From the NCBI RefSeq assembly GCF_030056795.1, contig NZ_JASHKQ010000001.1:1-64000 (forward strand): a stretch of 64,000 nt of DNA, written 5' to 3'. Under the pieces are notes generated by a model. It saw only the letters and a list, made by a program, of their open reading frames with translations. It was not told the DNA's origin and searched no databases. Source of the stretch: Rhodococcus sp. IEGM 1381 (lineage in GTDB: Bacteria > Actinomycetota > Actinomycetes > Mycobacteriales > Mycobacteriaceae). The translations under genes and the position numbers were made by a program. This document shows positions 1,122 to 62,854 of the stretch, piece by piece. Positions within the stretch are counted from its first letter, which is position 1. The number at the start of each line of letters is the position of its first letter.

Positions 1122-1186
1122 CGCACGACCCGATGCTGCGCCCCGCTGAGGATCCGTCAGTTCTGACCACCCGTAGCCTGTGGGGC

Positions 1187-1837: not shown

Positions 1838-1867
1838 GGCAGGAGTGGAGCCTGCGGAACGACCCAA

Positions 1868-5318: not shown

Positions 5319-5327
5319 CCGATGTGA

Positions 5328-6110: not shown

Positions 6111-6139
6111 ACCCCGGCATGTACCCCGAGCCCGTCGAA

Positions 6140-7668: not shown

Positions 7669-7696
7669 CACCACCTCTAACCGAAGGAGCTCTTTC

Positions 7697-7957: not shown

Positions 7958-8005
7958 GCCTACGGCTATGGTCGAGTGCGGGGGTAACGCAACGAAGGGA
8001 CCCGC

Positions 8006-10372: not shown

Positions 10373-10376
10373 CGGG

Positions 10377-10418
10377 TTCCGGAAGTGGGTCGTTCTAGCG
10401 AATGTCCCACTTCCGGAA
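10377..10418. terminator. Bidirectional terminator-like hairpin between convergent genes
   Basis: A perfect 13-bp inverted repeat, TTCCGGAAGTGGG (10377-10389) and CCCACTTCCGGAA (10406-10418), with a 16-nt loop. It lies between the fdhF-like stop and the convergent gntR; the gntR stop codon is in the loop. There is no clear U-tract, which is usual for actinobacterial hairpin terminators. Confidence 0.65.
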
Positions 10419-11051
10419 TTGACGGCGCATCACGTCGCTCGCCGCCTCGGCGTCGCGTCGCACGAAAGCCGCAATCAATTCTTCATGACTTCGCACCGCG
10501 TCCGCACCCCAGTTTTCGTTGGTTGCGTACAGCCGCGGCGTGTACCTGACTGCGCCGAGCAGGAACCACGCCAGTTTCATTCCGCCTGCGACCTTGTTGA
10601 CGCATTTGTGGAACTCGAACTCGTAGTACTCCACCGATTCGGTATCGGCACCGGCGACGGCGTTGCGTAGACCTTCGTTGAGCGCGGTCAGTAATTCCAG
10701 GTGCTCGCTGGTGATGACGCTCGCCGCACGGCCGGCGAGTGTGCCCGCGATGGTGCCCTGCAGCCAAAAGATGTCGTCGACGTCCTGCGGCGACAATTCG
10801 TTCACTCGGTAGCCGCGGTGCGGCACCTGTTCCACCAGTCCCTCACCGCGCAATGCGACGAGCGCCTCCCGGACGGGAGTAGCGCTGACACCGAGCTCGG
10901 CCGCCGCCTCGTCGATCCGCACGAAGGAGCCGGGTTGCAGCACTCCCGTGACGATCTGTTGGCGAATGCTCCCGGCCACATCCTCGGACAACTGCGGCCG
11001 ACGCGGAATCGAACGCTTCGACGACGCAGTGCGGTTGAGATCGAGGCTCAT
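10395..11051 (-). CDS. GntR family (FadR/FCD subfamily) regulator 1
   Basis: A 218-residue regulator. The N-terminal winged helix (about 17-85) contains LSEDVAGSIRQQIVTGVLQPGSFVRIDEAAAELGVSATPVREALVALRGEGLVEQVPHRGYRV, a classic GntR signature. The C-terminal FCD domain (about 90-215) includes the metal/ligand-site histidines of FEFHKCVNK and RSHEEL. I chose ATG 11051 because of an AGGAGCG site upstream. It diverges from the aldehyde dehydrogenase-MpaB operon and probably controls it through the palindrome at 11136-11156. It is a close paralogue of the regulator at 17082-17738. Confidence 0.9.
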   Translation of the reverse strand: MSLDLNRTASSKRSIPRRPQLSEDVAGSIRQQIVTGVLQPGSFVRIDEAAAELGVSATPVREALVALRGEGLVEQVPHRGYRVNELSPQDVDDIFWLQGTIAGTLAGRAASVITSEHLELLTALNEGLRNAVAGADTESVEYYEFEFHKCVNKVAGGMKLAWFLLGAVRYTPRLYATNENWGADAVRSHEELIAAFVRRDAEAASDVMRRQFRKWDIR

Positions 11052-11135
11052 GAATTCGCTCCTGCTCCTGAGCGGCCGGGCGGCGGGGGTTGTAGCAACC
11101 GAGGGTGACGCATAGTGTGGCCTGGACAACATTGA

Positions 11136-11156
11136 ATCACATCAAATATATGTGAT
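11136..11156. promoter_or_regulatory. Candidate GntR operator in the divergent gntR/aldehyde dehydrogenase promoter
   Basis: ATCACAT-CAAATAT-ATGTGAT is a perfect 7-bp inverted repeat in an AT-rich island of an otherwise GC-rich sequence. It sits 25 bp before the GTG of the aldehyde dehydrogenase. FCD-type GntR proteins bind short palindromes of this size near their own promoters, so the site is a good candidate for regulator 1. Confidence 0.55.
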
Positions 11157-11180
11157 GCGATCTGCTGGAGGACTGAAGCC

Positions 11181-12677: not shown

Positions 12678-12680
12678 CCC

Positions 12681-13595
12681 ATGGAGATCACGCCGAAGCG
12701 GGGGCGCTTCGGCTGGCTCGCCCGCATCGAGGAACTCGACCCGGTGCGGGATTGCCAGACGATTCACCGCATCACCGCCGGGTACGAGTTCCCGTGGGAC
12801 TACCAGCGCGCACTCGAATTCGCGTTGTTCCGTACCTATTGTGTGCCGACGATTTCCGCGTTGCTCGCCGAGACGGGTGAGTTCGAGAAGCGTCCACAGA
12901 AGCGGTACGACGACACCGCATTGCTGATGGCCGAGATGCTCGAGCACGGGTACGACTCCGAGCGGGGCCGCGAATCGCTTCGGGTGGTCAATCGGATGCA
13001 CGCGCAGTACGACATCTCCAACGACGACATGCTGTATGTGCTGACGACGTTCATCTACGAGCCGATCGAGTGGATCGACACCTACGGCTGGCGTCGCCTG
13101 CATCCCAAGGAGCGGCTCGCGACCTTCCATTTCTACAGCGAAGTGGGTAAACGCATGGGAATCAAGGACATTCCCGAGTCGTACACCGAGTTCGCACAGT
13201 TCAAGCTCGATTACGAGGAACGCACGTTCCGGTTCAGCGAGGACAATCGACGCATCGGCACCTACACCCTCGATCTCTATTGCTCGTGGTTTCCCGCCGC
13301 ACTCACGCCCGCGGTGAAGCAGGGAGTGTTCGCGCTGCTGGACGACCGGATGGCCCATGCTTTCGGATTCCCGGCGGGTTCGACGACCGTTGAACGAGTC
13401 GCCGTGCGGGCTCTGCGTGCCAGGGCCCGGGTAGAGCGGTTCTTCCCCAAGCGGACTCGGTCGCGGGTCACCGCCGATGCGACCAACAAGACTTATCCGG
13501 GATACCCCGTCGGCTATCAGCCGAGCGATCTGGGCACCCTGGCCTCACCTCGAGTTCGCAGTTGTGCGGGAAGAGCGCCGGCAATCTCGGTGTAA
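12681..13595 (+). CDS. Second DUF2236/MpaB-like protein, in an operon with aldehyde dehydrogenase
   Basis: A 304-residue protein with the DUF2236-type pattern: MLYVLTTFIYEPIEWIDTYGWRRLHPKERLATFHFYSEVGKRMGI and YTEFAQFKLDYEERTF in the middle of the chain. It is only distantly similar to the MpaB-like protein at 6140-7072. The start codon lies 3 nt after the aldehyde dehydrogenase stop, so the products probably act in sequence (an oxygenase producing an aldehyde, then its oxidation). That is an inference from gene order. The last 20 or so codons run into a palindrome (13551-13606) and look unconstrained, so the stop may have drifted. Confidence 0.75.
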   Translation: MEITPKRGRFGWLARIEELDPVRDCQTIHRITAGYEFPWDYQRALEFALFRTYCVPTISALLAETGEFEKRPQKRYDDTALLMAEMLEHGYDSERGRESLRVVNRMHAQYDISNDDMLYVLTTFIYEPIEWIDTYGWRRLHPKERLATFHFYSEVGKRMGIKDIPESYTEFAQFKLDYEERTFRFSEDNRRIGTYTLDLYCSWFPAALTPAVKQGVFALLDDRMAHAFGFPAGSTTVERVAVRALRARARVERFFPKRTRSRVTADATNKTYPGYPVGYQPSDLGTLASPRVRSCAGRAPAISV

Positions 13596-13606
13596 CTGCG
13601 AACTCG
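13551..13606. terminator. Hairpin at the convergent end of the MpaB-like and secreted hydrolase genes
   Basis: CGAGTTCGCAGTT (13551-13563) and AACTGCGAACTCG (13594-13606) form a perfect 13-bp inverted repeat with a 30-nt loop. It includes the stop codon of the plus-strand gene and ends 5 nt before the stop of the minus-strand hydrolase. It most likely serves as a shared terminator. The long loop makes it weaker than the hairpins at 33758 and 35421. Confidence 0.5.
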
Positions 13607-13611
13607 ACGAG

Positions 13612-14664
13612 TCAGAGTCCGTCCACCCACCTACCGAACGCATCGCGAAACTCCGACGAGAGCGGCAGCGGTGCAAGAGCGGTGTTCGGATCCGCGGGTA
13701 GCGGGCCGAGCTCGCCCAACATGTGCGAGCTGTTGGCGAAGTGCGCGAAGGCGAGGTCGGTGTGCCCCAAGGCCACTCGGACGTTCTCGACCTGGCCGCA
13801 GGAGACGTTGAGGTCCTTGTCCGAGCAGGTCAGGAACGAGGAGTACGAGTCCGGGAGTGCGGCAGCCAGATTCGCTGGGTCTGTCGCATCGGCTTCGCGC
13901 AGGAAGGTGGCGCTCTGCCGCAATCCCAGACCGTCGACGATCGGGTCGGGCTCGGCGGACAACGCCCGCCCCGCGCGAATATCGGCGACGGCCTGGGCGA
14001 AGCGATCCCGGGACGAGGAGGCCTGCTCCTCGGTGAACTGGCCCGTTGCCACGGCTTCGCCGATGTTGCGATCGATCTGAGCGGTCAGCAGGTCCAGGTA
14101 GCGGATCGATAACGGCTCGAGCAGGCCGACGTGGGCGAACGCCCCACTGTCGGCATCGGCCAGACGCAGTGCCGTCAGCGCACCCTCGCTGTGCCCGATC
14201 ACCGTCGTGCGATCCGCCCCGACACCCGTCCGGTGCTGCAGGAATGCCAGTGCGTCCGCAGCATTGTCGACCTGCGCGTCGAAACCGGGAGGGTTGTTGG
14301 GATCCACACCGGCCAGTCCGGTACTGCCGCTACCGAGCTTGTCGAATCGCAGGCTCGCAATGCCGCGTCGGGACAGCTCGTCGGCAACGTATGCGGTGGT
14401 GTTCAGCTGCAGATCACCCGAGTTTCCGTCGCGATCGGTCGGCCCACTGCCCGGCAGTACCAATGCGACGCCGCGGGTTTCGCCGACGGGCATGCGAAGG
14501 CTGCCGTAGAAGGTGATGCCACCGGACTCGAAGCTCACTTCGGAGTCGAGTGCGTCGTCCGGCGACCACGGGACGTTGATCGGAGCAGCGGCCGCGGTAC
14601 CCGCGCCGACGAGAAGGAGCATCGACGCGGCCAGTGCGGCGAGCAGTCGTCCGGTGTGCAGCAT
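13612..14664 (-). CDS. Secreted alpha/beta hydrolase
   Basis: A 350-residue protein with an N-terminal Sec signal peptide: a short basic end, then LLAALAASMLLLVGAGTAAAA, with likely cleavage after Ala-Ala-Ala near residue 27. The mature protein is an alpha/beta hydrolase. ALVLPGSGPTDRDGNSGDLQ supplies the oxyanion hole and GHSEGALTAL the nucleophile Ser. The final helix contains HMLGE and ends FGRWVDGL. It has the look of YqiA/DLH-like exported esterases. ATG 14664 was chosen because it begins the signal peptide directly. The substrate is unknown. Confidence 0.83.
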   Translation of the reverse strand: MLHTGRLLAALAASMLLLVGAGTAAAAPINVPWSPDDALDSEVSFESGGITFYGSLRMPVGETRGVALVLPGSGPTDRDGNSGDLQLNTTAYVADELSRRGIASLRFDKLGSGSTGLAGVDPNNPPGFDAQVDNAADALAFLQHRTGVGADRTTVIGHSEGALTALRLADADSGAFAHVGLLEPLSIRYLDLLTAQIDRNIGEAVATGQFTEEQASSSRDRFAQAVADIRAGRALSAEPDPIVDGLGLRQSATFLREADATDPANLAAALPDSYSSFLTCSDKDLNVSCGQVENVRVALGHTDLAFAHFANSSHMLGELGPLPADPNTALAPLPLSSEFRDAFGRWVDGL

Positions 14665-15031
14665 GCAGCCAGGGTAACAATCCGACCGCCCGTTCGGATA
14701 CTGCACGACCACCGATGCACGGTCGCCGATTGCGCAACGCGAGAGGCAAGGTTCTCGAGGTCTCCCTCAGGAAGTCTTACGCCCCGGCAACGGTCTGACG
14801 ACCCGATACGAGGCGTCGAACACCCGCTTTTGCGGGGTCCGGATGGGCCGAAGTGCTGGTCGGGGCACACCGCGAATCGGATAGGACGTAGCCTGGCTGG
14901 GAAGGTTCGGTGGCTCGACCGTGAATGACATCCGTGTTGTTCGGTTAGATTGGAAGAGCCACCAGGCACGATGCAAGAGGGTCGAGACCTGTCAACGAGC
15001 GACGGGTCACCACAATCGAGGAGAACAGGCC
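14665..15031. other. Intergenic region upstream of mIHF; holds a doubtful 54-codon minus-strand ORF
   Basis: This 367-bp stretch separates the secreted hydrolase from the mIHF-like gene. The right part should contain the mIHF promoter; TTAGATT at about 14944-14950 could be a -10 element. A minus-strand ORF at 14767-14931 encodes 54 residues (beginning MSFTVEPPNLPSQ, Pro/Arg-rich) with moderately GC-biased third positions but no convincing ribosome site. I leave it as doubtful. Confidence 0.3.
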
Positions 15032-15346
15032 ATGGCTTTACCAGTATTGACACCGGAACAGCGCACCGCGGCGCTGGCCAAGGCGGCCGAGGCACGCACT
15101 GCGCGGTCGAAGCTGCTCGCATCCGTCAAGTCCGGCGAACTCAGCGTCGCTGACGTTCTCGCCAAGGCGGAGAACGACGAGATCGTCAAGAAGACCAAGG
15201 TGTCCGCCCTGATCAAGGCCCTGCCGGGTGTTGGATCCGTGCGCGCCGCACAGCTGCTCGAGCAGCTGTCCATCGCCGATACCCGCCGTATCGGTGGCCT
15301 CGGTGCCAACCAGCGCGAAGCACTGCTGGCTGCCGTCGCATCCTGA
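15032..15346 (+). CDS. mihF: Integration host factor, actinobacterial type (mIHF family)
   Basis: A 104-residue basic protein of the mycobacterial IHF family, a nucleoid protein that bends DNA through an H2TH-like domain. The family start MALPxLTxEQRxAAL is present. So are KVSALIKALPGVGSVRAAQLLEQLSIADTRRIGGLGANQREALL (about 56-99) and the helix before it. ATG 15032 has an upstream GAGGAG site. The standard mihF gene sits beside gmk (guanylate kinase). Here the neighbours are a hydrolase and a KhtTU-like antiporter, so this is probably a second copy. Confidence 0.85.
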   Translation: MALPVLTPEQRTAALAKAAEARTARSKLLASVKSGELSVADVLAKAENDEIVKKTKVSALIKALPGVGSVRAAQLLEQLSIADTRRIGGLGANQREALLAAVAS

Positions 15347-15393
15347 TTCGCAACTTGCGATAACGCGTTACCTGCAGGGCTAGCATTTCGACC

Positions 15394-15876
15394 ATGAACG
15401 TCGAAGTGACCCTGCTGCCGGGAATCGGGGTGCGGAAAGATTTCGCCCTCGCTTCCGGGCGCCGCATAGGCGTCATCACCCGCAAGGACGGCGCGAACGA
15501 GTTGATCGTCTCGCGCAAGGACGACCCCGATGCGACGCAGGCATCGATCACGCTGAGCAATGAGGAAGCGGCGGCCCTGGGCAATCTGCTCGGGTCGCCG
15601 CAACTCATCGCTCAGCTCGGGGAAGAGCATCGCGACCTTCCCGGAATCAACACTCGCCAACTTCCCATTCGCGCGAATTCACGGTTCGTCAGCCGCACAC
15701 TCGGCGACACCACCATGCGCACCAAAACCGGGGTATCGGTCGTCGCTGTCATGCGCGCCGGCCAGGTACAGCCCTCCCCCACCCCAGACTTCACGCTGGC
15801 CGCTGGTGACCTGCTGGTCGCCGTCGGTACTGCGGAGGGACTGGACGCAGCAGCCAAGTTACTCGGCAATGCCTGA
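15394..15876 (+). CDS. Antiporter regulatory subunit with TrkA-C domain (KhtT-like)
   Basis: A 160-residue soluble protein. The N-terminal half (residues 1-70) contains LLPGIGVRKDFALASGRRIGVITRKDG and matches the KhtT-type N-domain. The C-terminal half (about 78-158) is a TrkA-C (RCK-C) domain: RANSRFVSRTLGDTTMRTKTGVSVVAVMRAG then DFTLAAGDLLVAVGTAEGLDAAAKLL. KhtT-type subunits gate a CPA2 cation/proton antiporter in response to pH or a nucleotide ligand. The antiporter gene begins 19 nt downstream, so the pair is an operon. Confidence 0.87.
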   Translation: MNVEVTLLPGIGVRKDFALASGRRIGVITRKDGANELIVSRKDDPDATQASITLSNEEAAALGNLLGSPQLIAQLGEEHRDLPGINTRQLPIRANSRFVSRTLGDTTMRTKTGVSVVAVMRAGQVQPSPTPDFTLAAGDLLVAVGTAEGLDAAAKLLGNA

Positions 15877-15895
15877 GATCAGTCGGGGCTGAGCA

Positions 15896-17068
15896 GTGGC
15901 CGAGAGCGCCCTTGCCCTCACCGAGCTGGGCGCAGTGTTCTTCGTTCTCGGACTTCTCGCTCGTCTTGCGGGGCGAATCGGTGTCTCCCCCATCCCGTTC
16001 TATCTGCTCGGCGGTCTCGCATTCGGCAACGGCGGCATAATTGACCTCGGCGGCATCGGCGAGTTCAGTGAGATCGCCAGCGAAATCGGCGTCATCCTGT
16101 TGCTGCTTCTGCTCGGACTCGAATATACCGCCGCCGAACTCGTCACCGGGCTCCGTCGATCCTGGATGGCCGGGCTGGTGGACATCGCACTGAACTTCGC
16201 CCCTGGTGCAGTGGTCGCGTTGCTCCTCGGCTGGGGCGGAGTCGGAGCGCTCGTGATGGGCGGCGTCACCTACATCTCGTCGTCGGGCATCATCGCCAAA
16301 GTGCTCACCGATCTGGGCCGACTCGGAAACCGCGAAACTCCCGTCGTGCTGTCCATCCTGGTGTTCGAGGACCTGGCGATGGCCATCTACCTGCCGATCC
16401 TCACCGCAGTACTGAGCGGAGTGAGCTTCCTCGGCGGTCTGGAAGCCCTCGGAATCTCACTGTTGGTCATCACCTTCGTGCTCGTGGTCGCGCTGCGCTA
16501 CGGCAGATTCGTCTCCGCCATCGTCGACAGTCCCGACCGCGAGGTCGTCCTGCTCAAAGTCCTCGGGTCGGCTCTGCTGGTCGCAGGCATCGCGTCGGAA
16601 CTGCAGGTCTCCGCAGCTGTCGGTGCATTCCTGCTCGGCATCGCGATCTCCGGGTCGACGGCCGACAACGCCACCCGCATTCTCGAACCACTCCGCGACC
16701 TGTTCGCGGCGATGTTCTTCGTGGTGTTCGGGCTCGGCACCGACCCGGCAACCATTCCACCGGTACTGGGCTGGGCGGTCGTGCTCGCGGTCACGACGAC
16801 AGCCACGAAGGTCGCGACCGGCTGGTGGGCGGCGGGGCGTCAGGGAATCGGGAGACCGGGCCGACTACGCGCGGGTGCGGCGCTGGTGGCGCGCGGAGAA
16901 TTCTCCATCGTCATCGCCGGGCTCGCCGTGGCCGCAGGCGCGGTGGAGGGTGAACTGGCGGCTCTGGCGACGGCGTACGTGCTGCTGATGGCCATCCTGG
17001 GACCGATCGCCGCCCGCGTGGTGGAACCGGTCGCGAAGGTCCTGCTTCGCACCAAGCCCGCGGTGTGA
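15896..17068 (+). CDS. CPA2-family cation/proton antiporter (KhtU/KefB-like)
   Basis: A 390-residue integral membrane protein with about 12 hydrophobic segments and the Na+/H+ exchanger (KefB-like) pattern. Visible motifs are LLGGLAFGNGGIIDLGGIGEFSEIASEIGVILLLLLLGLEYT early on, SILVFEDLAMAIYLPIL in the middle (acidic pair for ion binding), and FLLGIAISGSTADNA. It ends with the TM domain and has no TrkA-N domain, so regulation falls to the adjacent KhtT-like subunit. The start is a GTG at 15896. It probably exchanges K+ or Na+ for H+. Confidence 0.9.
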   Translation: MAESALALTELGAVFFVLGLLARLAGRIGVSPIPFYLLGGLAFGNGGIIDLGGIGEFSEIASEIGVILLLLLLGLEYTAAELVTGLRRSWMAGLVDIALNFAPGAVVALLLGWGGVGALVMGGVTYISSSGIIAKVLTDLGRLGNRETPVVLSILVFEDLAMAIYLPILTAVLSGVSFLGGLEALGISLLVITFVLVVALRYGRFVSAIVDSPDREVVLLKVLGSALLVAGIASELQVSAAVGAFLLGIAISGSTADNATRILEPLRDLFAAMFFVVFGLGTDPATIPPVLGWAVVLAVTTTATKVATGWWAAGRQGIGRPGRLRAGAALVARGEFSIVIAGLAVAAGAVEGELAALATAYVLLMAILGPIAARVVEPVAKVLLRTKPAV

Positions 17069-54103: not shown

Positions 54104-54754
54104 TCATGAATTAGGCTCTGCGGGGCGGTAGCCGACAGTCCCGACGCGAACCTGGATATGGCCGCCGCGGACAGCGCGAGTCGACAGATCCCGCAGCAGT
54201 GGAGCCATTGCCGTCCACGGATGAGCCTCGATATCCGCCCCTCCGAGTCGGCAGGCAAGCTTCGCCAACGGGGTCCACACCGCCGCCCGTCCGACGGGCC
54301 GCTGCATGTCGACGACGGCCACGACGCCGCCCGTTCGCGTAGCCGAGATCATCGCGTCGAGAGCCGCCTGCCACGGCGTCATCAGCGAGAGCGCGTAGGT
54401 ACTCAGGGCCGCATCGAACGGTGCGTGCTCGCCCAGATCCGCGAGAGTCAGCGTGGTGGCGTCGGCGGCGGCGAGGGTGACGTTGTCCCAGCCGGCCCGG
54501 TCAGCTCGCCGTCGGGCCTGTTCGAGCATCTGCGGGCTGGCGTCGATTCCGGTGATCGAGCCGGTGGGTCCGATCATCCGCTGCAGGCCGGCGAAGTTCA
54601 GGCCCGTGCCGCAGCCGAGGTCCAGAACATGGCTGCCCGCAGGCAGATTCAGTAGCTCGAACGCCGCCTCTCGACCGGCGCGATACACCGGCCATTCGAA
54701 GGAGATCACGTCGTACAGGCGCGCCGAGAGGGTGTACGGCGTCGGTCGTCTCAT
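54104..54754 (-). CDS. Class I SAM-dependent methyltransferase
   Basis: A 216-residue methyltransferase. Motif I is VLDLGCGTGLNFAGL (about 43-57). An acidic residue follows in ITGIDASPQML, motif II in AADATTL, and the PFDAALSTYALSLM region follows. The C-terminal domain and YDVISFEWPVYRAGREAAF opening suggest a UbiE/lipid-like methyltransferase. It is divergent from the MerA-like flavoprotein (35 bp between starts) and probably belongs to the same functional cluster. The substrate is unknown. Confidence 0.87.
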   Translation of the reverse strand: MRRPTPYTLSARLYDVISFEWPVYRAGREAAFELLNLPAGSHVLDLGCGTGLNFAGLQRMIGPTGSITGIDASPQMLEQARRRADRAGWDNVTLAAADATTLTLADLGEHAPFDAALSTYALSLMTPWQAALDAMISATRTGGVVAVVDMQRPVGRAAVWTPLAKLACRLGGADIEAHPWTAMAPLLRDLSTRAVRGGHIQVRVGTVGYRPAEPNS

Positions 54755-54789
54755 CTCGGTCTCTCCAAGGCGCGGGCATAGTGGGAGGT

Positions 54790-56253
54790 ATGGGAATTCG
54801 TCGTTCGTCTTCCAGTGTGCCCGACAACCGTGCCGACGTGGTCGTGGTGGGCGGCGGCACCGCAGGCATCGTGGCAGCGAAGACCGCGGCCAGCTTCGGC
54901 ATTCGCGTCGTGTTGATCGAGCGGGACCGCACCGGCGGCGACTGCCTGTGGACGGGATGCGTGCCGTCGAAAGCGCTGCTCGCGGCGGCTTCGGTGGCAC
55001 AGACGGTTCGATCCGCGTCCCGGTTCGGCATCGTCACCCAGCCACCGAGCGTGGATTTCGCGCTCGTGATGCAGCATGTACACAGTGCGATCGCCGAGAT
55101 CGCGCCGATCGATTCACCGGAGGCCCTGACCGAGGCCGGGGTCCATGTGATCCACGGCGACGCAGTCTTCTCCGGTCCGAACACCGTTTCCGTCGGTACG
55201 CGGACGCTCTGTTTCGGCCAGGCGATCGTGACCGCCGGAGCCCATCCGACGGTGCCGGCGATCGACGGCATCGAGCACGTGGACTACTTGACCAGCGACA
55301 CCGTGTGGGATCTGAAGGACTTGCCGCAGCGACTGCTGATCGTCGGTGCCGGGTCGGCGGGTTGTGAAATGGCGCAGGCATTTTCGCGTCTCGGGTCGGA
55401 TGTGACTCTGGTCGGGCGGTCGGCCACGATCCTGCCGCGCGAGGATGAAACGGCGACCTCGATTCTGACGCAGGCACTGACAGACGAGGGTGTGCGCGTC
55501 CTGACCTCCACCGCCGTCGTGCGCATCGAGGACGGCACGGCCGTGACCGACACGGGCGTAGACATCGCATTCGATCGGGTGCTCGTCGCCACCGGGCGGA
55601 CTCCGCGTACCGCGTCCCTCTGCTTGGACACGGCCGGTGTGGAATTGGACGACAACGTGTTCGTTCAAGTCGACGAGCATCTGCGGACCACCAATCCCCG
55701 CATCTGGGCGGCCGGAGATCTCACCGGACATCCGCAGTTCACGCACACCGCCGGTGTGCACGGCAGTCTGGCCGCGAGCAACGCGGCACTCGGTCTGAAC
55801 CGAAAGGTGAGTATGACGGGAACGCCACGGGTGACGTTCACCGATCCCGAGATCGCCTCGGCCGGAATCGATATGCGGACCGCGAGGGAGCGCGGTTTGC
55901 GGCTGCAGATGCTCGAGCACCATCACGTCGATCGTGCCGTCACCGAGGGGGCAACAAACGGATCGACGACGCTCGTGCTCGACGCCAAGCGGCGCATCGT
56001 CGGAGCCTGCGTGGTGGGACCGCGGGCCGGCGAGACGATCGGGGAGCTGATCATCGCCATCGAGCAGGGCCTGCGTACCCGAGATCTCGCCGGAGCCACG
56101 CATCCGTATCCGACGTACAACGACGGGCCATGGAACGCGGCGATAGCGGACGTGAAGTCGCAGTTGGGTTCTCCGGTGATTTCTCGAGCAACCGCCGCAC
56201 TGGCGAAGGTGCGCGGTGCGTGGATCAGGAGAGCGCGCGATACCCGGCGATGA
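54790..56253 (+). CDS. Pyridine nucleotide-disulfide oxidoreductase (MerA/Lpd-like)
   Basis: A 487-residue flavoprotein of the dihydrolipoamide dehydrogenase/mercuric reductase family. The FAD motif VVVVGGGTAGI (17-27) and the redox-active disulfide GGDCLWTGCVPSKA (C52, C57) are clear. The NAD(P) motif is IVGAGSAGCEMAQAF, and the C-terminal dimer motif reads HPYPTYNDG. It has no N-terminal metal-binding domain, so real mercuric reduction is doubtful; this type is often linked to TVP38/TMEM64 membrane proteins. The start is either ATG 54790 or GTG 54781. It converges with the CDP-alcohol phosphatidyltransferase, overlapping by 29 nt. Confidence 0.87.
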   Translation: MGIRRSSSSVPDNRADVVVVGGGTAGIVAAKTAASFGIRVVLIERDRTGGDCLWTGCVPSKALLAAASVAQTVRSASRFGIVTQPPSVDFALVMQHVHSAIAEIAPIDSPEALTEAGVHVIHGDAVFSGPNTVSVGTRTLCFGQAIVTAGAHPTVPAIDGIEHVDYLTSDTVWDLKDLPQRLLIVGAGSAGCEMAQAFSRLGSDVTLVGRSATILPREDETATSILTQALTDEGVRVLTSTAVVRIEDGTAVTDTGVDIAFDRVLVATGRTPRTASLCLDTAGVELDDNVFVQVDEHLRTTNPRIWAAGDLTGHPQFTHTAGVHGSLAASNAALGLNRKVSMTGTPRVTFTDPEIASAGIDMRTARERGLRLQMLEHHHVDRAVTEGATNGSTTLVLDAKRRIVGACVVGPRAGETIGELIIAIEQGLRTRDLAGATHPYPTYNDGPWNAAIADVKSQLGSPVISRATAALAKVRGAWIRRARDTRR

Positions 56254-56836
56254 TCCGTTGGGTGGAGCTCACCGCGACCACCGCCGCCCAGACCACCGCG
56301 ATCTGCCATGAGATACCGGGCAGCAGCAGCCACAGACTGTGTACTGCAATGGTTTCGGCTCCCTCGGCCAGTCCTCCGAGGAAGGACAGCGAGCGGCCGT
56401 CGTCGATGGTGCGGCCGTTGCGTTCGGCGATGGAGGAGAACGCCAGAAACGCGGTGCCGTTGATGTAGTACGCCAACAGCACCAGCAGAAACGGCCACCA
56501 CGGGGCGTCGTACGCGGCCGAGGCACCCACCGCGACGCCCACCACGGTGGTGCCGTACACCACGAAATCGGCGGTGATGTCGAAGAATCCGCCTGCCCCA
56601 GCGGTTGTCGACCGCCTGCGCGCCAGCGGCCCGTCCAGGCCGTCGGCGATGCGGGAGACGATCCACAACGCCAACGCGAGCAGCCAGAACTGCAGGCCGG
56701 CGGCCAGTGCGCTACCGAGGCCGAGCACCAGTCCAGCGGCGGTGATCCGGTCCGGGGTGATCGCGGGGCGGTCGAGGGCGCGAGCACAGCGATCGAGTGG
56801 AGCTTCGAGGTGGCGGCGCAGATAGCTGTCGATCAT
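56225..56836 (-). CDS. CDP-alcohol phosphatidyltransferase family protein (YnjF-like)
   Basis: A 203-residue integral membrane enzyme with five or six hydrophobic segments. The CDP-OH-P signature DG-x2-AR-x8-G-x3-D-x3-D is fully present in DGPLARRRSTTAGAGGFFDITAD (about 66-88). Such enzymes join a CDP-activated lipid to an alcohol head group. ATG 56836 overlaps the TVP38 gene stop by 4 nt, so both are co-translated. The head group is not deducible. In E. coli, ynjF of the same family sits in the ydjXYZ-ynjABCDEF neighbourhood. Confidence 0.88.
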   Translation of the reverse strand: MIDSYLRRHLEAPLDRCARALDRPAITPDRITAAGLVLGLGSALAAGLQFWLLALALWIVSRIADGLDGPLARRRSTTAGAGGFFDITADFVVYGTTVVGVAVGASAAYDAPWWPFLLVLLAYYINGTAFLAFSSIAERNGRTIDDGRSLSFLGGLAEGAETIAVHSLWLLLPGISWQIAVVWAAVVAVSSTQRIIAGYRALS

Positions 56837-57501
56837 TCGGCAGCTCCGGTCAATCCGAGACGTCGCGCCAACAGAGCCGAGCCGGCCGCGATCGCCAGGA
56901 CGGCGAGCAGTGCGATGGCGAAAGGCCACGACAGCGGAGACGTTCCGTACGCCCCGAGCGCGGTGTAGGCGACGGTCGCGGGCACGATGCCGATCATGGT
57001 GCCCACCACATAGTCACGTTGCCCCACGGCACTGACTCCGGCCGCGTAGTTGACCAAGGAGAACGGCAGCGGCACCAGACGCACGAGCAGTACCGACAGC
57101 AATCCGCGTCGTCCGAGCATGGCGTCGAGCCGGCGGAGCCTGTCCCATTCCGTTCGGGCCACCTGGCCGCGTCCCAGCGCCCGCGCTCCCCAATACCCGA
57201 GATAGGCCCCCATCGTGGCGGCGAACACCACGACGGTCGCGCCCACCGCCAATCCGAACAGCAGTCCCGACGCGATGGTCAACGTGCTGGCGGGGAACGG
57301 GGTGGCAGACAGGACGGCATAGAGCACGACGAACAGCGCGATGCCCCACGGCCCGGCCGACGCCACTCGGTCACGGATGAACGCCGGGTCGGGTAGGTCG
57401 ACGGTACCGAGCACGATCACCACAGCGATGACGACCACGGCAGCCGCGAGCAATTTCAGGGTGGTGCCTCGGCGACTACGCGTCGGGCGGTCCTGCGTCA
57501 C
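56833..57501 (-). CDS. TVP38/TMEM64 family membrane protein (YdjX/YdjZ-like)
   Basis: A 222-residue membrane protein with about six hydrophobic segments. The SNARE-associated/VTT domain is clear: FVVLYAVLSATPFPASTLTIASGLLFGLAVGATVVVFAATMGAYLGYWGARALGR and LVRLVPLPFSLVNYAAGVSAVGQRDYVVGTMIGIVPATVAYTALGAYG. Members of this superfamily (DedA/VTT) are proposed lipid scramblases or transporters. GTG 57501 has a GAGAGG site 8 nt upstream. The CDP-alcohol phosphatidyltransferase overlaps its 3' end by 4 nt. Confidence 0.9.
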   Translation of the reverse strand: MTQDRPTRSRRGTTLKLLAAAVVVIAVVIVLGTVDLPDPAFIRDRVASAGPWGIALFVVLYAVLSATPFPASTLTIASGLLFGLAVGATVVVFAATMGAYLGYWGARALGRGQVARTEWDRLRRLDAMLGRRGLLSVLLVRLVPLPFSLVNYAAGVSAVGQRDYVVGTMIGIVPATVAYTALGAYGTSPLSWPFAIALLAVLAIAAGSALLARRLGLTGAAE

Positions 57502-57659
57502 GGTGTGTGCCTCTCGTCCGGCGGTCAGGATCCATTGTGCACAAGTTCGTCCCCGAGTTCCCTGGGCGGGCGATCCGCACTCCGCCATTCGGCAGCAGCG
57601 CTTCGAGTGATGTGCAGTCGTCGGTCCCGTGGGGTGGGACAGCTCCTCGCAGCTCTCCG

Positions 57660-58130
57660 TTACATCTGGATGACCCAGATGTAGGCTCGAGCATTCGATT
57701 CTGGGACGGAAGTCGTTACGGCACTGAGAAACCCGTGTCCCGTCACCCGAGACGCGCAATACGTGAGAGCAGCCTGCGAATCCGGAAGGTATTCCGTCGG
57801 CGTCTGCTTGAATTCGTAGCTGTTTCTGGGCTCACACAACGTCAGCCCCGAAGCCCGTCGGAGCTCCTCGGCCCGTGCAGCCGAACTCGACTCGACTATC
57901 AAATACGCCGAAGAATCAGGAAACGAGCTGAACACCTCGGAGTACAAGATCGTGTCGTCATCTGTCAGGTCCAAACCGAGGTTCACTGCCATCGACGCAG
58001 CGGCCTGACGCTCCGACCGCTCGGATATCGAACGATAGAGCGGTGGAACGCAAAGCCCGAGAGCCACAACCACGACGACGACTGCCGCGAGGCTCCACAT
58101 CCGCCGCGGACGTCCACGAAGCCAGGTCAT
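57660..58130 (-). CDS. Hypothetical protein with N-terminal membrane anchor
   Basis: A 156-residue protein. A basic N-terminus and one hydrophobic helix (MWSLAAVVVVVVALGLCVPPLY, about 11-32) anchor it, and the rest should be outside the cytoplasm. Four cysteines (C27 in the helix; others at LTLCEP and LTYCASR) could give disulfides. No family was recognised. It lies 13 nt downstream of another unknown gene and 158 nt upstream of TVP38 on the same strand, so an operon is plausible. Confidence 0.55.
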   Translation of the reverse strand: MTWLRGRPRRMWSLAAVVVVVVALGLCVPPLYRSISERSERQAAASMAVNLGLDLTDDDTILYSEVFSSFPDSSAYLIVESSSAARAEELRRASGLTLCEPRNSYEFKQTPTEYLPDSQAALTYCASRVTGHGFLSAVTTSVPESNARAYIWVIQM

Positions 58131-58143
58131 AGCGATGATCCGA

Positions 58144-58803
58144 TCACGGGGGCCGGACGGGCACTGACCGCACGATGGGTTGTCGCCGTGACGGCCACGT
58201 TCCAGTGCGAAAAGTAGCCATCATCTGCTGCTCGACAGCGCTTCGGTGAGTTCGGTCGTCCTGCCAGAGGGTGAAGAGGTCGCCAGCGGACGAGATCGTG
58301 CGGATACCAGGAAGCGTGGGATCGTTCGACGGCTCGTTGATGGGCCAGTTCTTCAACCAATTGGCGGCAAGTACCGGGTGCAGCAATCCGTCCACCGTCC
58401 GCGAACTGACCACGCGTGTGAGGACGTTGATCGCCGCCTGCCAGCGGTTGATCGACGGCAATCCCAGCGGCAGGAGCATGTCCCAGCGGCCTTGTTCCCG
58501 GGACTCTCGCGTGACGGTGCCTGCGACGTCGATCATGTGCCGACCGACTCTGTCGTCGAGTTCTCGCTCCCACACGGCGCGTTCCCGCTCGATCGCACTA
58601 CGGAACACCTCCAACTCGACCAGTCCTGATCGGGGTCCGGCTTCTCCGAGCGGGTACGCACACAGGTCGATAAGCAGGTTGTCGCGCAGATCCCGCGCCA
58701 CCGACCGATGCGCCGGCCGGGACTGGAGCTGTTGGGCCTCCGCTACCGTGACCACACCCGCGAGCAGGAACCAATCGATCTCTCTGGGTTCTCTGAGCAT
58801 CAC
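58144..58803 (-). CDS. Hypothetical helical protein
   Basis: A 219-residue protein, mostly helical, with many charged residues (VARDLRDNLLIDLCAYPLGEAGP, FRSAIERERAVWERELDDRVGRHMIDVAG). The C-terminal 30 residues are Arg/Pro-rich. No known domain was found by eye. The start is set at ATG 58803. It opens away from the ABC importer (161 bp between the two starts), and the next gene follows after 13 nt. Function unknown. Confidence 0.55.
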   Translation of the reverse strand: MMLREPREIDWFLLAGVVTVAEAQQLQSRPAHRSVARDLRDNLLIDLCAYPLGEAGPRSGLVELEVFRSAIERERAVWERELDDRVGRHMIDVAGTVTRESREQGRWDMLLPLGLPSINRWQAAINVLTRVVSSRTVDGLLHPVLAANWLKNWPINEPSNDPTLPGIRTISSAGDLFTLWQDDRTHRSAVEQQMMATFRTGTWPSRRQPIVRSVPVRPP

Positions 58804-58963
58804 CGAAGCAGTCTCTCACCGAATCGGACAACGACCGGAAGCCCAACGCGAGGAACAACGCCATCCGCTCCGGGCTCCCGTCGTCGGCGGATGCCCTCTT
58901 CGACCGATTACGGTGGTGAACGCAGCGTCTTACGTCTGTTCCCGTGAACCAGGAGGCCGTCCG

Positions 58964-60202
58964 TTGAAGTTTCGCTCCTTACGGCGCGCAGTAACGATTG
59001 CGGCGAGCGCGGGGCTGCTGCTCACCTCCTGTGCTGCGCCGGATTCGGAAGCACCGATTGCCGAGGCGCAGTCCTGGAGCGAGATCCAACAGCAGGCGCA
59101 GGGGCAGACCGTCTCGCTGTGGATGTACGGCGGCGACGAGCAGGGCAATGCGTATGTCGACGACGTGCTCACACCTGCTGCCGCCGCGGAAGGCGTCACT
59201 CTGAGACGTGTGCCGGTCGAATCGACCACCGATGCCGTCAACCGCATCCTGTCCGAGCGACAGGCCGGGGTCACCGACGGCGAAGTGGACCTGGTGTGGG
59301 TCAACGGCGCGAACTTCGGCACCGGTAAGCAGGCCGGCGCGTGGCTGTGCGGCTGGACGCAGAATCTGCCGAACAGGGAATTGACCGATCCCGAGGATCC
59401 GCTGTTGCTCGACGACTTCGGCACCCCGGTCGAGAACTGCGAATCCCCCTGGTTCAAAGCACAATTCACGTTGGTCTACAACGCGGCGGCGATCCCGAAC
59501 CCGCCGACCACCTTCGAGGGCGTCCTCGACTGGGCGAAGGCAAACCCCGGCCGCTTCACCTACCCCGCTCCCCCGGACTTCACCGGCTCGGTGTTCGTGC
59601 GTGAGGCGTTGATCAATGCCTCCGGCGGCGTCGACGAGGTTCCCGCGCAGTTCGATCAGGACTCCTACGACCGACTCGCCCCGGCATTGTTCGATCAGTT
59701 GAACGAACTCGCCCCATCACTGTGGCGCGAGGGAACGACGTATCCGCAGTCTTCCTCCGAGCTCGACGCCCTCTACGCCGGCGGTCAGGTCGACATGACC
59801 ATGACGTACGGCCCCGCGACCCTCCCGAAACTCGTCGCCGACGGCACCTTCCGGCCGGAGACCCGCGTCCTGACTCTGGACGAGGGAACCGTCGGGAATG
59901 CGAGTTTCCTTGCCATTCCGTCGACGTCGGGGAAGTCGGCCGCGGCACAGGTGGTTGCCAATCTCGCGCTGTCGCCAGAGCAACAACTCGCGACGTCGAC
60001 GCCGGACGTGTGGGGTCAGTTCACCGTGCTCGATCTCGACAAGGTGCCTGCCGATGTTCGGGCGCGATTCGACGGTCTGGCACCGTCGGATGTCGTCCCC
60101 TCCTACGACGAGCTGTCGGCCAATGCTCACCCCGAGCTCTCGGCCGACTGGGTGTCGCCACTCGACGAGGGTTGGCGACGAAGCGTGCTCGCCGGGCAGT
60201 GA
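58964..60202 (+). CDS. ABC transporter substrate-binding lipoprotein (YnjB-like)
   Basis: A 412-residue extracytoplasmic solute-binding protein. The signal peptide ends in a lipobox LLTSCAAP (cysteine at about residue 23), so it is a lipoprotein. The mature chain follows the YnjB/thiamine- or iron-binding type: WMYGGDEQGNAYVDDVLTPAAAAEGVTLRRVPV, DLVWVNGANFGTGKQAGAWLCGW and VENCESPWFKAQFTLVYNAAAIP. The start is a TTG at 58964, chosen because a full AGGAGG site lies 7 nt upstream. The permease gene overlaps its stop (GTGA). The ligand is unknown. Confidence 0.85.
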   Translation: MKFRSLRRAVTIAASAGLLLTSCAAPDSEAPIAEAQSWSEIQQQAQGQTVSLWMYGGDEQGNAYVDDVLTPAAAAEGVTLRRVPVESTTDAVNRILSERQAGVTDGEVDLVWVNGANFGTGKQAGAWLCGWTQNLPNRELTDPEDPLLLDDFGTPVENCESPWFKAQFTLVYNAAAIPNPPTTFEGVLDWAKANPGRFTYPAPPDFTGSVFVREALINASGGVDEVPAQFDQDSYDRLAPALFDQLNELAPSLWREGTTYPQSSSELDALYAGGQVDMTMTYGPATLPKLVADGTFRPETRVLTLDEGTVGNASFLAIPSTSGKSAAAQVVANLALSPEQQLATSTPDVWGQFTVLDLDKVPADVRARFDGLAPSDVVPSYDELSANAHPELSADWVSPLDEGWRRSVLAGQ

Positions 60203-61038
60203 GCGCGTCCACGAAGAGCTTTCGCGGCACTGCGGCGGTGCTCCCCGCCGTCGTCTTGGTCGTTCTGGTCGTCGGCGGCGGTCTGGGAACCGTGGTGCTG
60301 CAGAGCCTGGGTCTGATGCCATTGGTCGGAACCCCCGAATTGTCGGTCGACGCATACTCCGCGCTGGGCGGTGACCTGTGGCGCTCGGTAATGCTGACAC
60401 TGTCGATTGCCATCGTCTCGACGGCGTTGGCCACGGTGATCGGGCTTGCCGCGGCGCTGACGGCCTTGTCTGGTGGACGCGCCGCGCTGGTCGCTGCAGG
60501 CTTGACGGTCACGGTGCCGCACCTGATCGGGGCCGCGGCGATGGCATTGCTATTGGCAGATTCAGGGATGCTGCCTCGTATTCTCGGCATGACCGACGGT
60601 GGCTGGCCGGAGTTGGTGGGTGGACGGTGGTGGATCGCCGTCGTCGCCGAATATGCCTGGAAGGAATCGGCTTTCGTGGCCGTCGTGGTGGCGGGAACAC
60701 TCGCCACCCGAGTAGCCGCTTTCGACGAGACGGCCGCCACCCTGGGCGCAGGCCGGTGGGCTCGGCTGCGACTGGTCACGCTGCCGTTGGCTCGGCCCGC
60801 GCTGATCGCCTCGGCGGCCATCGCGTTCGCCTACACCGTCGGATCGTACGAGGTGGCCCGCATTCTGGGTCGACCGTATCCGGAGCCGTTGTCGGTGATG
60901 GCAATTCGTCTGTTCACCTCGATCGATCTCGAGACGCGACCACAGGCAGCAGCTGCCGCGACGATCGCCACCGCTCTGACGGTGGTCGTGGCCGCGGCGG
61001 CACTGCACTATCTGCGCAGATCGGCAGCGTGGAAATGA
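60199..61038 (+). CDS. ABC transporter permease 1 (YnjC-like, N-half)
   Basis: A 279-residue permease with about six TM segments. The EAA-like loop is visible at TAATLGAGRWARLRLVTLPLARPALIASAAIAF, which docks to the ATPase. It starts at GTG 60199, overlapping the binding-protein stop by 4 nt, and its end overlaps permease 2 by 4 nt (ATGA). E. coli YnjC is one long permease; here it is split into two genes, as in other 2-permease Fe/thiamine-type importers. Confidence 0.87.
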   Translation: MSASTKSFRGTAAVLPAVVLVVLVVGGGLGTVVLQSLGLMPLVGTPELSVDAYSALGGDLWRSVMLTLSIAIVSTALATVIGLAAALTALSGGRAALVAAGLTVTVPHLIGAAAMALLLADSGMLPRILGMTDGGWPELVGGRWWIAVVAEYAWKESAFVAVVVAGTLATRVAAFDETAATLGAGRWARLRLVTLPLARPALIASAAIAFAYTVGSYEVARILGRPYPEPLSVMAIRLFTSIDLETRPQAAAAATIATALTVVVAAAALHYLRRSAAWK

Positions 61039-61823
61039 ACAAGGTGGAAGTGAACAAGGTCCTTCCTGCCGTCGGCAGGTCCGTTCTGGTCCTGTGGTTC
61101 CTACTGCCGCTGATTCCGGTTGTCTTGTGGGCCCTCAGCAATCGCTGGTCGTTTCCCGGTTCGGTTCCCCAGGAATGGGGATTCGACGGCGTCCGCAGCG
61201 CCCTCGACGCCGGGGGTGCCGATGCGTTCGTGCGATCGACCATACTCGCTCTCGCCGTCGCCGCCATCGCAACACCATTGGGCGCGTTGGCCGCTCGCGC
61301 ACTGGTGAACGGTACTGTGCGCTTCCCCGCTTTCGTAGCTGCGGTCCTCTTCGCTCCGCTGGCCCTGCCCCCGTTTGCCGTGGCCTTGGGGCTCGATGTC
61401 CTGGTGCTGCGCTCACGCATTCCGAGCACGGTGGCGGTGATCGCATTGCTGACCGTTGCGGCCATTCCATATACGACGTATCTGATGCGAGTGGCATTCG
61501 GCGCGTACGACATCGGCTACGAGCAAGAAGCGCGAACGCTCGGCGCGTCGAGTGCCATGGTTCTGCGGCGGATTCGCATTCCGCTGTTGGCTCCGGCGTT
61601 GGCGGGTGCGGCGTTGCTCGCGTTCCTCGTGGCGTGGAGCGACTATGTGATCACCCTGCTGATCGGTGGAGGCAGACTGGTCACCGTGCCCATTCTCGTC
61701 GCCTCGTTCGCTGCCGGGACCGGTAACGATTCGGTGGTGGCTGCATTGTCGGTCGCCGCCGTCGTACCGCCGTTGTTACTGGTGCTCATGCTGGCCCGGT
61801 TGCGTCGTAGGAGTGCCCGATGA
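61035..61823 (+). CDS. ABC transporter permease 2 (YnjC-like, C-half)
   Basis: A 262-residue permease, six TM segments, with the EAA loop EARTLGASSAMVLRRIRIPLLAPALAGAALLAF. The sequence DYVITLLIGGGRLVTVPILVASF is typical of the same family. ATG 61035 overlaps the previous stop; the ATPase ATG (61820) overlaps this gene by 4 nt. The tight coupling of all four genes indicates one importer. Confidence 0.87.
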   Translation: MNKVEVNKVLPAVGRSVLVLWFLLPLIPVVLWALSNRWSFPGSVPQEWGFDGVRSALDAGGADAFVRSTILALAVAAIATPLGALAARALVNGTVRFPAFVAAVLFAPLALPPFAVALGLDVLVLRSRIPSTVAVIALLTVAAIPYTTYLMRVAFGAYDIGYEQEARTLGASSAMVLRRIRIPLLAPALAGAALLAFLVAWSDYVITLLIGGGRLVTVPILVASFAAGTGNDSVVAALSVAAVVPPLLLVLMLARLRRRSAR

Positions 61824-62854
61824 GCGTCGAACTGTCCGTACACGGACTCACGAAAGTCCATGCCGGTCAATTGGTTGCGGCACTCGACTCACTGGGTCTC
61901 ACCGTGCCGCCGGGGTCGTGCACGGCGATTCTCGGGCCGTCGGGCTCGGGCAAGAGCACTGCACTGCGGCTCATTGCCGGCCTCGATTCACCCACCGCCG
62001 GCACGGTGCGCATCGACGGCCGCGAGGTGAACGGTGTTGCGGCCGAGAACCGCGGGGTCGGGATGGTGTTCCAGCGTCCGATGTTGTTCCCGCACATGTC
62101 GGTACTCGACAACATTGGCTTCGCCTACCGCGCTGCCGGGGAGAGTCGCAAGCGGTCGCGCGAACGTGCCCGGGAGTACCTCGACCTGGTCCATCTCGGT
62201 GACATCGGGGGCCGAGCAGTGTCCGAAGTGTCGGGCGGGCAGGCGCAACGCGTGGCGTTGGCGCGCTCGCTTGCTGGTTCCCCGCGAGTGTTGTTGCTGG
62301 ACGAGCCCTTCAGCGCCCTGGACCCGGTGTTGCGCACCGAGATGCACGATCTGGTGCGCGAATTGCGAGCCTCACTGGATCAGACTCTGCTGCTCGTCAC
62401 CCACGACCAGCAGGAAGCGGCGGTGCTGGCCGATTCGGTGGCGGTGCTCATCGACGGCCGATTAGAGCATCACTCCGATATCGCGACGGCGTACACGCGA
62501 CCGAGCACGCTGGCAGTGTCGCGACTGATGGGTGGGATGAACGAAATCGAGGGTCGGTGGGATGGGGTTGGGGTTCATCGCTCCGAGCTCGGGGAGCTGG
62601 AGGTCGAGGGGGTCACTGGAATTGCGGCGGGGCCAGCGGTGTTGCTGCTGCGACATGAGCTGATCAGTCTGAATGACAACGGGATTCGTGGGGTTGTGTC
62701 TGGTTTGCGGCCGACCGGATTTCGCAGCATCGCCGATGTCACCGTGGGATCGACAGTTCTGAAGGTGGAGCTGGCGGCGGGATCTGCGGTGCGGGTCGGG
62801 GACGCCGTGGGGTTTGAGATTCCGGATGGGGCGAGGTTTGTTGTCACGGGTTGA
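61820..62854 (+). CDS. ABC transporter ATP-binding protein (YnjD-like)
   Basis: A 344-residue ABC ATPase. Walker A GPSGSGKST is at 39-47, the Q-loop in MVFQRPMLFPHM, the signature VSGGQAQRVALARSL, Walker B VLLLDEPFSALDP and the H-loop in LLVTHDQQEA. A C-terminal TOBE-like domain (about 250-344, with VLLLRHELISL and IADVTVGSTVLKVELAAG) is added, as in thiamine, iron and polyamine importers. The gene closes the operon. Its 3' end and the following DNA are richer in A/T. Confidence 0.92.
   Translation: MSVELSVHGLTKVHAGQLVAALDSLGLTVPPGSCTAILGPSGSGKSTALRLIAGLDSPTAGTVRIDGREVNGVAAENRGVGMVFQRPMLFPHMSVLDNIGFAYRAAGESRKRSRERAREYLDLVHLGDIGGRAVSEVSGGQAQRVALARSLAGSPRVLLLDEPFSALDPVLRTEMHDLVRELRASLDQTLLLVTHDQQEAAVLADSVAVLIDGRLEHHSDIATAYTRPSTLAVSRLMGGMNEIEGRWDGVGVHRSELGELEVEGVTGIAAGPAVLLLRHELISLNDNGIRGVVSGLRPTGFRSIADVTVGSTVLKVELAAGSAVRVGDAVGFEIPDGARFVVTG

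Follow-up and report, generated by a model that had tools for sequence, protein, structure and literature searches.

A ydj/ynj-like gene neighbourhood in Rhodococcus with a YnjB-type importer and a CDP-alcohol phosphotransferase of altered acceptor motif

In Escherichia coli K-12, the genes ydjX-ydjY-ydjZ-ynjA-ynjB-ynjC-ynjD-ynjE-ynjF form a single neighbourhood. The FNR regulon is reported to list ydjXYZ-ynjABCD and ynjE, with direct activation of ynjE (PMC3688515), the BaeR-dependent induction reported for ynjAB is weak and perhaps indirect (PMC2731931), and a mutation in ynjC, a gene introduced in the same source with the words 'little is known', alters fitness under colistin (PMC9184624); these links to the envelope and to anaerobic growth are compatible with a role in lipid chemistry and do not decide it. 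YdjX and YdjZ are, by inference from two sources (PMC10127716, PMC7818093), members of COG0398 and relatives of human TMEM41B. In the first of these, the COG0398 DedA proteins are proposed to be phospholipid flippases or scramblases, their role is described as open, about 90% of them are given as single-domain proteins and the commonest fusion partner is a PF07992/PF02852 flavoprotein (PMC10127716). As to the CDP-alcohol phosphotransferases, the phosphatidylinositol-phosphate synthase is described as binding inositol phosphate via an RxxR motif (R153) and a second arginine, R191, and six-helix members of the family as using soluble acceptors (PMC4634129). We analysed here a window of 64,000 nucleotides from Rhodococcus sp. 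IEGM 1381 (contig NZ_JASHKQ010000001.1, positions 1 to 64,000), in which the stretch 54104-62854 carries eight cluster genes and two unrelated ones. The eight encode a methyltransferase, a MerA-like flavoprotein, a YnjF-type CDP-alcohol phosphotransferase, a VTT membrane protein and an importer made of a YnjB-type binding protein, two permeases and an ATPase. We conclude that this neighbourhood is real, conserved, non-random and uncharacterised; its function is what we infer below. The open-access literature, with subscription journals and preprints outside the search, yielded no paper describing the gene set as a system. The families are already known, and their combination with an altered acceptor site is a variant that is now better defined.

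Likeness to E. coli and linkage across genomes

Families were called with the curated cut-offs of Pfam and NCBIfam, and the window proteins were compared with those of E. coli by BLASTP. All the families that a sequence-only reading of this DNA had named (methyltransferase, flavoprotein, CDP-alcohol enzyme, VTT and importer) are present, each with a Pfam or NCBIfam match, and its statement that ydjX/ydjZ and ynjB-ynjF share one neighbourhood agrees with the K-12 gene order. The binding protein is 38% identical to YnjB (E 3e-74), the CDP-alcohol enzyme 33% to YnjF over a full-length alignment (E 2e-29), the ATPase 33% to YnjD (E 5e-23), and the VTT protein 27% to YdjX (E 2e-17) and 33% to YdjZ (E 2e-16). 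The two permeases gave weak matches to the two halves of YnjC (E 4e-7 and 1e-6); because each matches one half, the single fused permease of E. coli corresponds to the two permeases found here. YnjB, YnjC, YnjD, YnjF and at least one VTT homologue are therefore shared within one neighbourhood. The differences are that the permease is split in the window, which adds the MerA-like flavoprotein and the methyltransferase, whereas E. coli has ydjY, ynjA, ynjE and two VTT proteins; no significant match to ydjY, ynjA or ynjE was found in the window cluster.

Co-occurrence was followed in four sets of loci: 17 from the genus, 7 from six genomes of the class, 20 from the phylum (one for each genome with YnjB above its cut-off, leaving aside that of the window and G164, which has a split gene; G135 contributed one of its two places) and 80 named loci. 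The latter came from a scan with a YnjB alignment (at least 599 stretches, 591 confirmed); the 80 most similar to a Metabacillus protein were kept, so that this set is no even sample. Within the genus, 18 of 37 genomes each have all three of the YnjB, YnjF-type and flavoprotein genes, and the other 19 have none of them; in 17 loci out of 17, the VTT, flavoprotein, YnjF-type and methyltransferase genes all lie within 9 kb of ynjB. Of the 246 phylum genomes, YnjB exceeds its cut-off in 22 and a YnjF-type enzyme is present in 13; 11 have both, or 12 with a partial binding protein in G179 included (for the 11, Fisher P 1.3e-11, uncorrected for relatedness and with the 150-bit line for YnjF set after seeing the gap between 158 and 119 bits). 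With the YnjF profile, 14 places in 13 of these genomes score above 150 bits and the next one 119, which puts the YnjF type clear of other CDP-alcohol enzymes. In the class YnjB is sparse, with 7 of 344 genomes above its cut-off.

The VTT, flavoprotein and YnjF-type genes, hereafter the lipid-side genes, stand together within 9 kb of ynjB in 12/80 named, 5/20 phylum, 4/7 class and 17/17 genus loci. The 80 named loci divide into 12 with all three, 9 with two, 5 with one and 54 with none; were the three genes independent, 1.1 loci with the full set would be expected. The 12 comprise five Chloroflexota, two actinobacterial metagenome-assembled genomes (MAGs), Salinispora, two Streptomyces, Kineosporia and one Spirochaetia MAG. 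Altogether, full sets around ynjB were found in at least five phyla (Actinomycetota, Chloroflexota, Spirochaetota, Bacillota and Pseudomonadota). In a Metabacillus from the plasmid collection they form an operon-like run VTT-flavoprotein-YnjB-permease-permease-ATPase-YnjF, and a Klebsiella plasmid has a VTT/flavoprotein fusion with YnjBCD and YnjF; one Klebsiella plasmid is typed as conjugative. Plasmids of Pseudoalteromonas and Catenovulum (L198, L199, L202) carry, in this order, genes for a TonB-dependent receptor, an oxidoreductase with flavin adenine dinucleotide (FAD; on two of the three plasmids its annotation gives a fusion with VTT), a DUF547 protein, YnjB, a permease, an ATPase, YnjF and a sterol-desaturase-like protein; the receptor, the DUF547 protein and the desaturase-like protein point to a bulky or scarce substrate in Gram-negatives. 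This spread, plasmids of Klebsiella, Metabacillus and marine bacteria included, suggests a function of general use.

Starting from YnjF instead, 28 plasmid records matched and 24 of them have ynjB within 6 kb, the four without being from Sinorhizobium (many of the records nearly duplicate one another, and a few entered as plasmids are chromosomes). As a control, the same profiles with a 40-bit floor were run on 40 random windows of 19.2 kb from ten contigs of this genome and of relatives, none from outside the phylum: a VTT gene was found in one, a flavoprotein gene in one, a YnjF-type gene in none, and two or more in none. On a YnjB tree of 118 rows (after removal of 13 genus rows out of 17 and of L120, which is short), rows were labelled when one or more of these genes lay nearby. 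The label needs 19 changes versus 38 when shuffled, with none of 500 shuffles as low, and 16 of the 17 rows in the window's clade carry it. Chance neighbourhood is rejected by the random windows, by co-presence in the genus and by the plasmid search begun from YnjF. The earlier claim that the same families recur in distant phyla is thereby upheld, and the co-occurrence analysis proposed along with it gave linkage above chance (0/40 random windows, 12 loci against 1.1 expected) rather than the chance-level association that was to count against it.

Residues and relatives of the encoded proteins

The YnjF-type enzyme of the window scores 37.9 bits on PF01066 (cut-off 22) and carries the full donor/metal signature D..DG..AR..G...D...D, which makes it a class I CDP-alcohol phosphotransferase; at the position of the acceptor motif it has EGAET instead of RxxR. 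Among YnjF-type proteins, the signature is found in 47 of 48 with a relaxed pattern and in 32 of 48 with the strict one, the first arginine of RxxR is a glycine in 50/52 and the second a threonine in 49/52, while the other acceptor arginine, outside RxxR, is retained in 48 of the 52 aligned (this residue set and that of the flavoprotein each contain 18 near-copy rows from the window and the genus). Since the signature is intact and the acceptor motif altered, the enzyme should be active with another acceptor, which from its sequence is probably not inositol phosphate. The phosphatidylinositol-phosphate and archaetidylinositol-phosphate synthases, among its closest solved relatives, share the donor/metal signature and differ by having RxxR where the YnjF type has GxxT. 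The window protein reaches 53 bits against a cut-off of 180 and 29 against 170 on the respective models; with these scores and the replaced motif, an identity as inositol-phosphate transferase is rejected.

On the importer side, the binding protein scores 434 bits (cut-off 203) on NF008633/PRK11622, which we take to be the YnjB model, and belongs to that family; the nearest protein, 90% identical, is from Rhodococcus sp. NKCM2511. Its structure model (predicted local distance difference test, pLDDT, 94.5) has the fold of sugar, polyamine and similar binding proteins. No ligand can be deduced from it because the top structural matches are mixed, being binders of aminoethylphosphonate (STM0429, presumably), polyamine, thiamine, iron, sugar, dinucleotide and glycerophosphocholine; against the sequences of solved structures, the YnjB profile gave one weak match. 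The importers PhnSTUV, Pot, Thi and UgpB (for 2-aminoethylphosphonate, polyamine, thiamine and glycerophosphodiester) share the binding-protein fold and the permease superfamily and differ in that neither permease of the window nor its ATPase reaches any NCBIfam equivalog cut-off. Nucleoside hydrolase genes lie near ynjB in 9/80 named and 8/20 phylum loci, a few of which also have a VTT gene, and DhaK-type genes in 9/80 named loci; along with the fold, these neighbours hint at sugar, polyol or nucleoside chemistry. L036, L043, L065, L073, L074, L079 and others represent a separate YnjB context, with genes for a DhaK-type kinase, an isomerase-like protein and a nucleoside hydrolase, which hints at sugars or polyols as substrates. 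Genes for a PF04307 (YdjM-type) membrane protein were also seen beside ynjB in Chloroflexota and Actinomycetota (6/80 and 7/20 loci), one example being L106:14834-15947.

A C-terminal vicinal cysteine pair is defining for MerA, and a catalytic HxHPT histidine motif is the mark of dihydrolipoyl dehydrogenase. The flavoprotein of the window has the redox motif GGDCLWTGCVPSK and, at the C-terminal active-site position, PYPT, which aligns with the PYLT of MerA; no C-terminal vicinal cysteine pair was found in it. Among 56 strong matches, the strict CxxxxC motif is present in 49, HxYPT in 39, HxHPT in none and the C-terminal pair in one. MerA proteins are its closest solved structures and have the CxxxxC and PYxT positions in common with it; the flavoprotein (490 aa) differs by its score and by lacking both the vicinal cysteines and the N-terminal extension. 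Mercuric reductase is rejected on this pair and on 364 bits for TIGR02053 (cut-off 454), dihydrolipoyl dehydrogenase on 328 bits for TIGR01350 (cut-off 409) and on HPYPT in place of HxHPT. As judged from its residues, the protein is MerA-like at the tyrosine, yet it is no mercuric reductase by score or cysteines. The methyltransferase, which adjoins the cluster in all 17 genus relatives, contains two cysteines only, and an ArsM identity is rejected at 54 bits on the best arsenite-methyltransferase model, NF008823 (cut-off 263).

The VTT protein belongs to the VTT/DedA family, with 78.4 bits on PF09335 (cut-off 33.9). In a tree that has long branches and omits two of the seven other VTT places of the genome, it lies among YnjB-linked VTT proteins of other bacteria and with YdjX/YdjZ, apart from five of the six rows for own-genome paralogs (two of the six are one protein); one further paralog falls inside the YnjB-linked group, on a long branch. 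The YdjX/YdjZ kind of DedA/VTT protein shares PF09335 with it, and the fusion with PF07992 is already known there (PMC10127716); what differs is that the VTT protein of the window is tied to a CDP-alcohol phosphotransferase and an importer.

A candidate lipid pathway and its rivals

From the families present, the cluster may quite possibly be the actinobacterial form of a conserved module by which a polar, sugar- or polyol-like solute is imported and built into a membrane lipid. The solute would be captured by YnjB, brought in by the permeases and ATPase, and tailored by the methyltransferase, joined in roughly half of the cluster-bearing genus genomes by a radical S-adenosylmethionine (SAM) enzyme. 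On the YnjF-type enzyme, a hydroxyl of the solute or of its tailored form would displace cytidine monophosphate (CMP) from CDP-diacylglycerol, giving a phosphatidyl lipid which the VTT protein, as a putative phospholipid scramblase of the YdjX/YdjZ kind, would move between the membrane leaflets. The flavoprotein, fused to VTT in several bacteria, could use NAD(P)H for a reduction at the membrane whose target is probably the head group or an oxidant bound there. Such a pathway would provide an overlooked gene set with its first testable function. By tying the ydj-ynj genes and the part played by COG0398 DedA proteins (bacterial relatives of human TMEM41B and VMP1) to a CDP-alcohol phosphotransferase of unusual acceptor motif, it would also turn two questions into one assay. 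It is distinctly unlikely, in our view, that this extends to a pan-bacterial pathway, E. coli included, for an undescribed class of phospholipids, with an imported polyhydroxylated solute, a redox-active head group made through methyltransfer, radical SAM and disulfide-reductase tailoring, a new EGxET acceptor site and a dedicated VTT scramblase; if it did, the YdjX/YdjZ kind of DedA protein would gain a specific cargo.

Several observations weigh against a lipid pathway. The 54 named loci mentioned above and 10 of the 20 phylum loci have none of the lipid-side genes within 9 kb of ynjB, and some of these have nucleoside hydrolase or DhaK-type sugar genes as neighbours; the importer may therefore be joined just loosely to lipid chemistry. 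In the phylum, for 11 of the 22 genomes with YnjB no YnjF-type score exceeds 150 bits, G183 has a YnjF-type enzyme without YnjB, and G026, G073, G105 and G155 hold both on other contigs or far apart, as do the four Sinorhizobium plasmids, where 450-510 kb separate the YnjF-type genes from ynjB. In the E. coli neighbourhood, rhodanese, AhpD-like and 4Fe-4S genes take the place of the flavoprotein gene, and a role in sulfur, selenium or oxidant metabolism without any new lipid would suit several of the neighbours. The earlier proposal of one system is retained in part: the families are co-present in the genus and across phyla, and such a system would have variants (importers without lipid-side genes, E. 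coli without flavoprotein).

Taken to its end, such a role gives a redox or trace-element module, in which the flavoprotein would work alongside VTT, rhodanese, AhpD-like or SelD-like partners to detoxify or assimilate a compound of sulfur, selenium or a metalloid imported by YnjBCD, and YnjF would just adjust the membrane. The CxxxxC and the PYxT tyrosine aligned with MerA speak for it, and so do YnjE and YnjA in E. coli and the place of ydjXYZ-ynjABCD and ynjE in the FNR regulon as listed (PMC3688515). It also draws on the rhodanese-like, TusA and YedE/FdhT-like (98 bits, cut-off 350) neighbours in Halanaerobacter, on an actinobacterial protein that resembles TIGR03169 (N-terminal to SelD; 267 bits, cut-off 310) and has kin on a Klebsiella plasmid, and on the (seleno)protein TrsS as the top, though weak, hit of the linked radical SAM protein (27 bits, cut-off 490). 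We nevertheless hold it to be rather unlikely: 55 of 56 flavoproteins are without the C-terminal cysteine pair, partners of the rhodanese, AhpD-like or SelD-like type are absent from the window cluster, and the YnjF-type gene is linked in the genus as tightly as the flavoprotein gene. Far less probable is a pathway resembling that of arsenosugar phospholipids, in which a methylated metalloid would pass through SAM-derived sugar chemistry and be attached to lipid by YnjF. Its basis is a Streptomyces locus (L082) where the full set is accompanied by a TIGR04283 glycosyltransferase (236 bits, cut-off 182), a second glycosyltransferase that we take to be TIGR04282-like, an MTAP-like phosphorylase, an ArsM-like methyltransferase (196 bits, cut-off 263) and a radical SAM gene; the glycosyltransferase pair recurs with ynjB in four other loci but is limited to these five. 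The window methyltransferase, at 54 bits against the 263 of the arsenite-methyltransferase cut-off and with its two cysteines, fits this poorly, and the radical SAM protein is under every NCBIfam cut-off, the arsenosugar radical SAM model not being among its matches to E 0.01. That a sugar- or nucleoside-type importer merely lies by happenstance beside membrane genes, with no joint function, would accommodate the many YnjB importers that have no lipid-side genes or have sugar and nucleoside genes. We consider it the least probable explanation, and a very improbable one, given co-presence without exception in the genus, operon-like runs in several phyla and 0/40 random windows.

Layout of the locus, its insert and further neighbours

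The features of the locus are listed in Table 1. The methyltransferase and flavoprotein genes are divergent, the flavoprotein and CDP-alcohol phosphotransferase genes are convergent with a 29-base overlap, and the importer genes are oriented opposite to the VTT/CDP-alcohol phosphotransferase pair. Four junctions, read directly, are 4-base overlaps: binding protein/permease 1, permease 1/permease 2, permease 2/ATPase and VTT/CDP-alcohol phosphotransferase.

Table 1. Features of the stretch 54104-62854 (ABC, ATP-binding cassette)
Feature	Coordinates	Strand	Basis
Class I SAM methyltransferase, 216 aa	54104..54754	-	PF13649
MerA-like FAD disulfide oxidoreductase, 490 aa (478 if start at 54817)	54781..56253	+	PF07992 + PF02852
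YnjF-type class I CDP-alcohol phosphotransferase, 203 aa	56225..56836	-	PF01066, YnjF BLASTP, signature
VTT/DedA (TVP38/TMEM64) membrane protein, GTG start predicted	56833..about 57501	-	PF09335, BLASTP, tree
Insert of ~1.3 kb, lineage-specific, holds U1 and U2	57544..58898	.	Alignment breaks versus nine close relatives
U1, 156 aa, inside insert	57660..58130	-	No Pfam/NCBIfam match
U2, 219 aa, inside insert	58144..58803	-	No Pfam/NCBIfam match; kin elsewhere in genus
YnjB-type solute-binding lipoprotein, 412 aa, TTG start predicted	58964..60202	+	NF008633, structure model
ABC permease 1, GTG start predicted, ~ N-terminal half of YnjC	60199..61038	+	PF00528, BLASTP
ABC permease 2, ~ C-terminal half of YnjC	61035..61823	+	PF00528, BLASTP
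ABC ATPase, YnjD-like	61820..62854	+	PF00005, BLASTP

When the window was aligned to nine close relatives, the match ended at 57543-57545 and began again at 58884-58901; in between, the relatives have just a few tens of bases. Profiles of U1 and U2 found no other locus among the loci examined, the 17 genus relatives included, and kin of U2 (60-69% identity) stand at unrelated places in four genus genomes, one of them without YnjB. The two genes therefore belong to an insert of about 1.3 kb between two divergent operons. They are not parts of the system: the idea that they might be its lineage-specific components is rejected, as the insert is missing from all 17 relatives examined and U2 has its kin elsewhere.

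Two further genes accompany the cluster in relatives. The radical SAM gene (CxxxCxxC; PF04055 E 7.5e-5, below the Pfam cut-off) was found in 8/17 genus and 5/7 class loci and also at L056, L057, L082, L097 and L120, an example being L137:4852-6354; in the window's own genome it lies on the same contig at 103283-104713, outside the window. Within the genus it occurs in 10 of the 18 YnjB genomes versus none of the 19 genomes without YnjB, and the link is looser in the phylum (5/246 genomes, two of them without YnjB). No NCBIfam cut-off was reached by its product, whose weak best matches are TrsS and the tetraether lipid synthase Tes (20 bits, cut-off 450), the latter a hint at most of lipid chemistry. 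A gene for an extracytoplasmic function (ECF) sigma factor is present in 8/17 genus and 5/7 class loci, at L082, L094, L097 and L120 and, as a weaker match (31%), on the Klebsiella plasmid (examples: L137:13423-13986 and L014:12057-12581); no close copy was found in the window's genome, where the best match is 36%.

Some single loci have further company. L082 (Streptomyces sp. SM1, 952-14205) has the full YnjB/YnjF/VTT/flavoprotein set in its arsenosugar-like neighbourhood. In L102 (Halanaerobacter jeridensis, 3-16056), genes for rhodanese-like, TusA and YedE/FdhT-like proteins, a nucleoside hydrolase, an Fe-S flavoprotein, VTT and YnjBCD make up one run, which also has two glycosyltransferase genes and an APH/choline-kinase-like gene. 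The TIGR03169-like flavoprotein near ynjB in the actinobacterium is at L106:16129-17235 and its kin on the Klebsiella plasmid at L014:6818-7888, a possible link to selenium.

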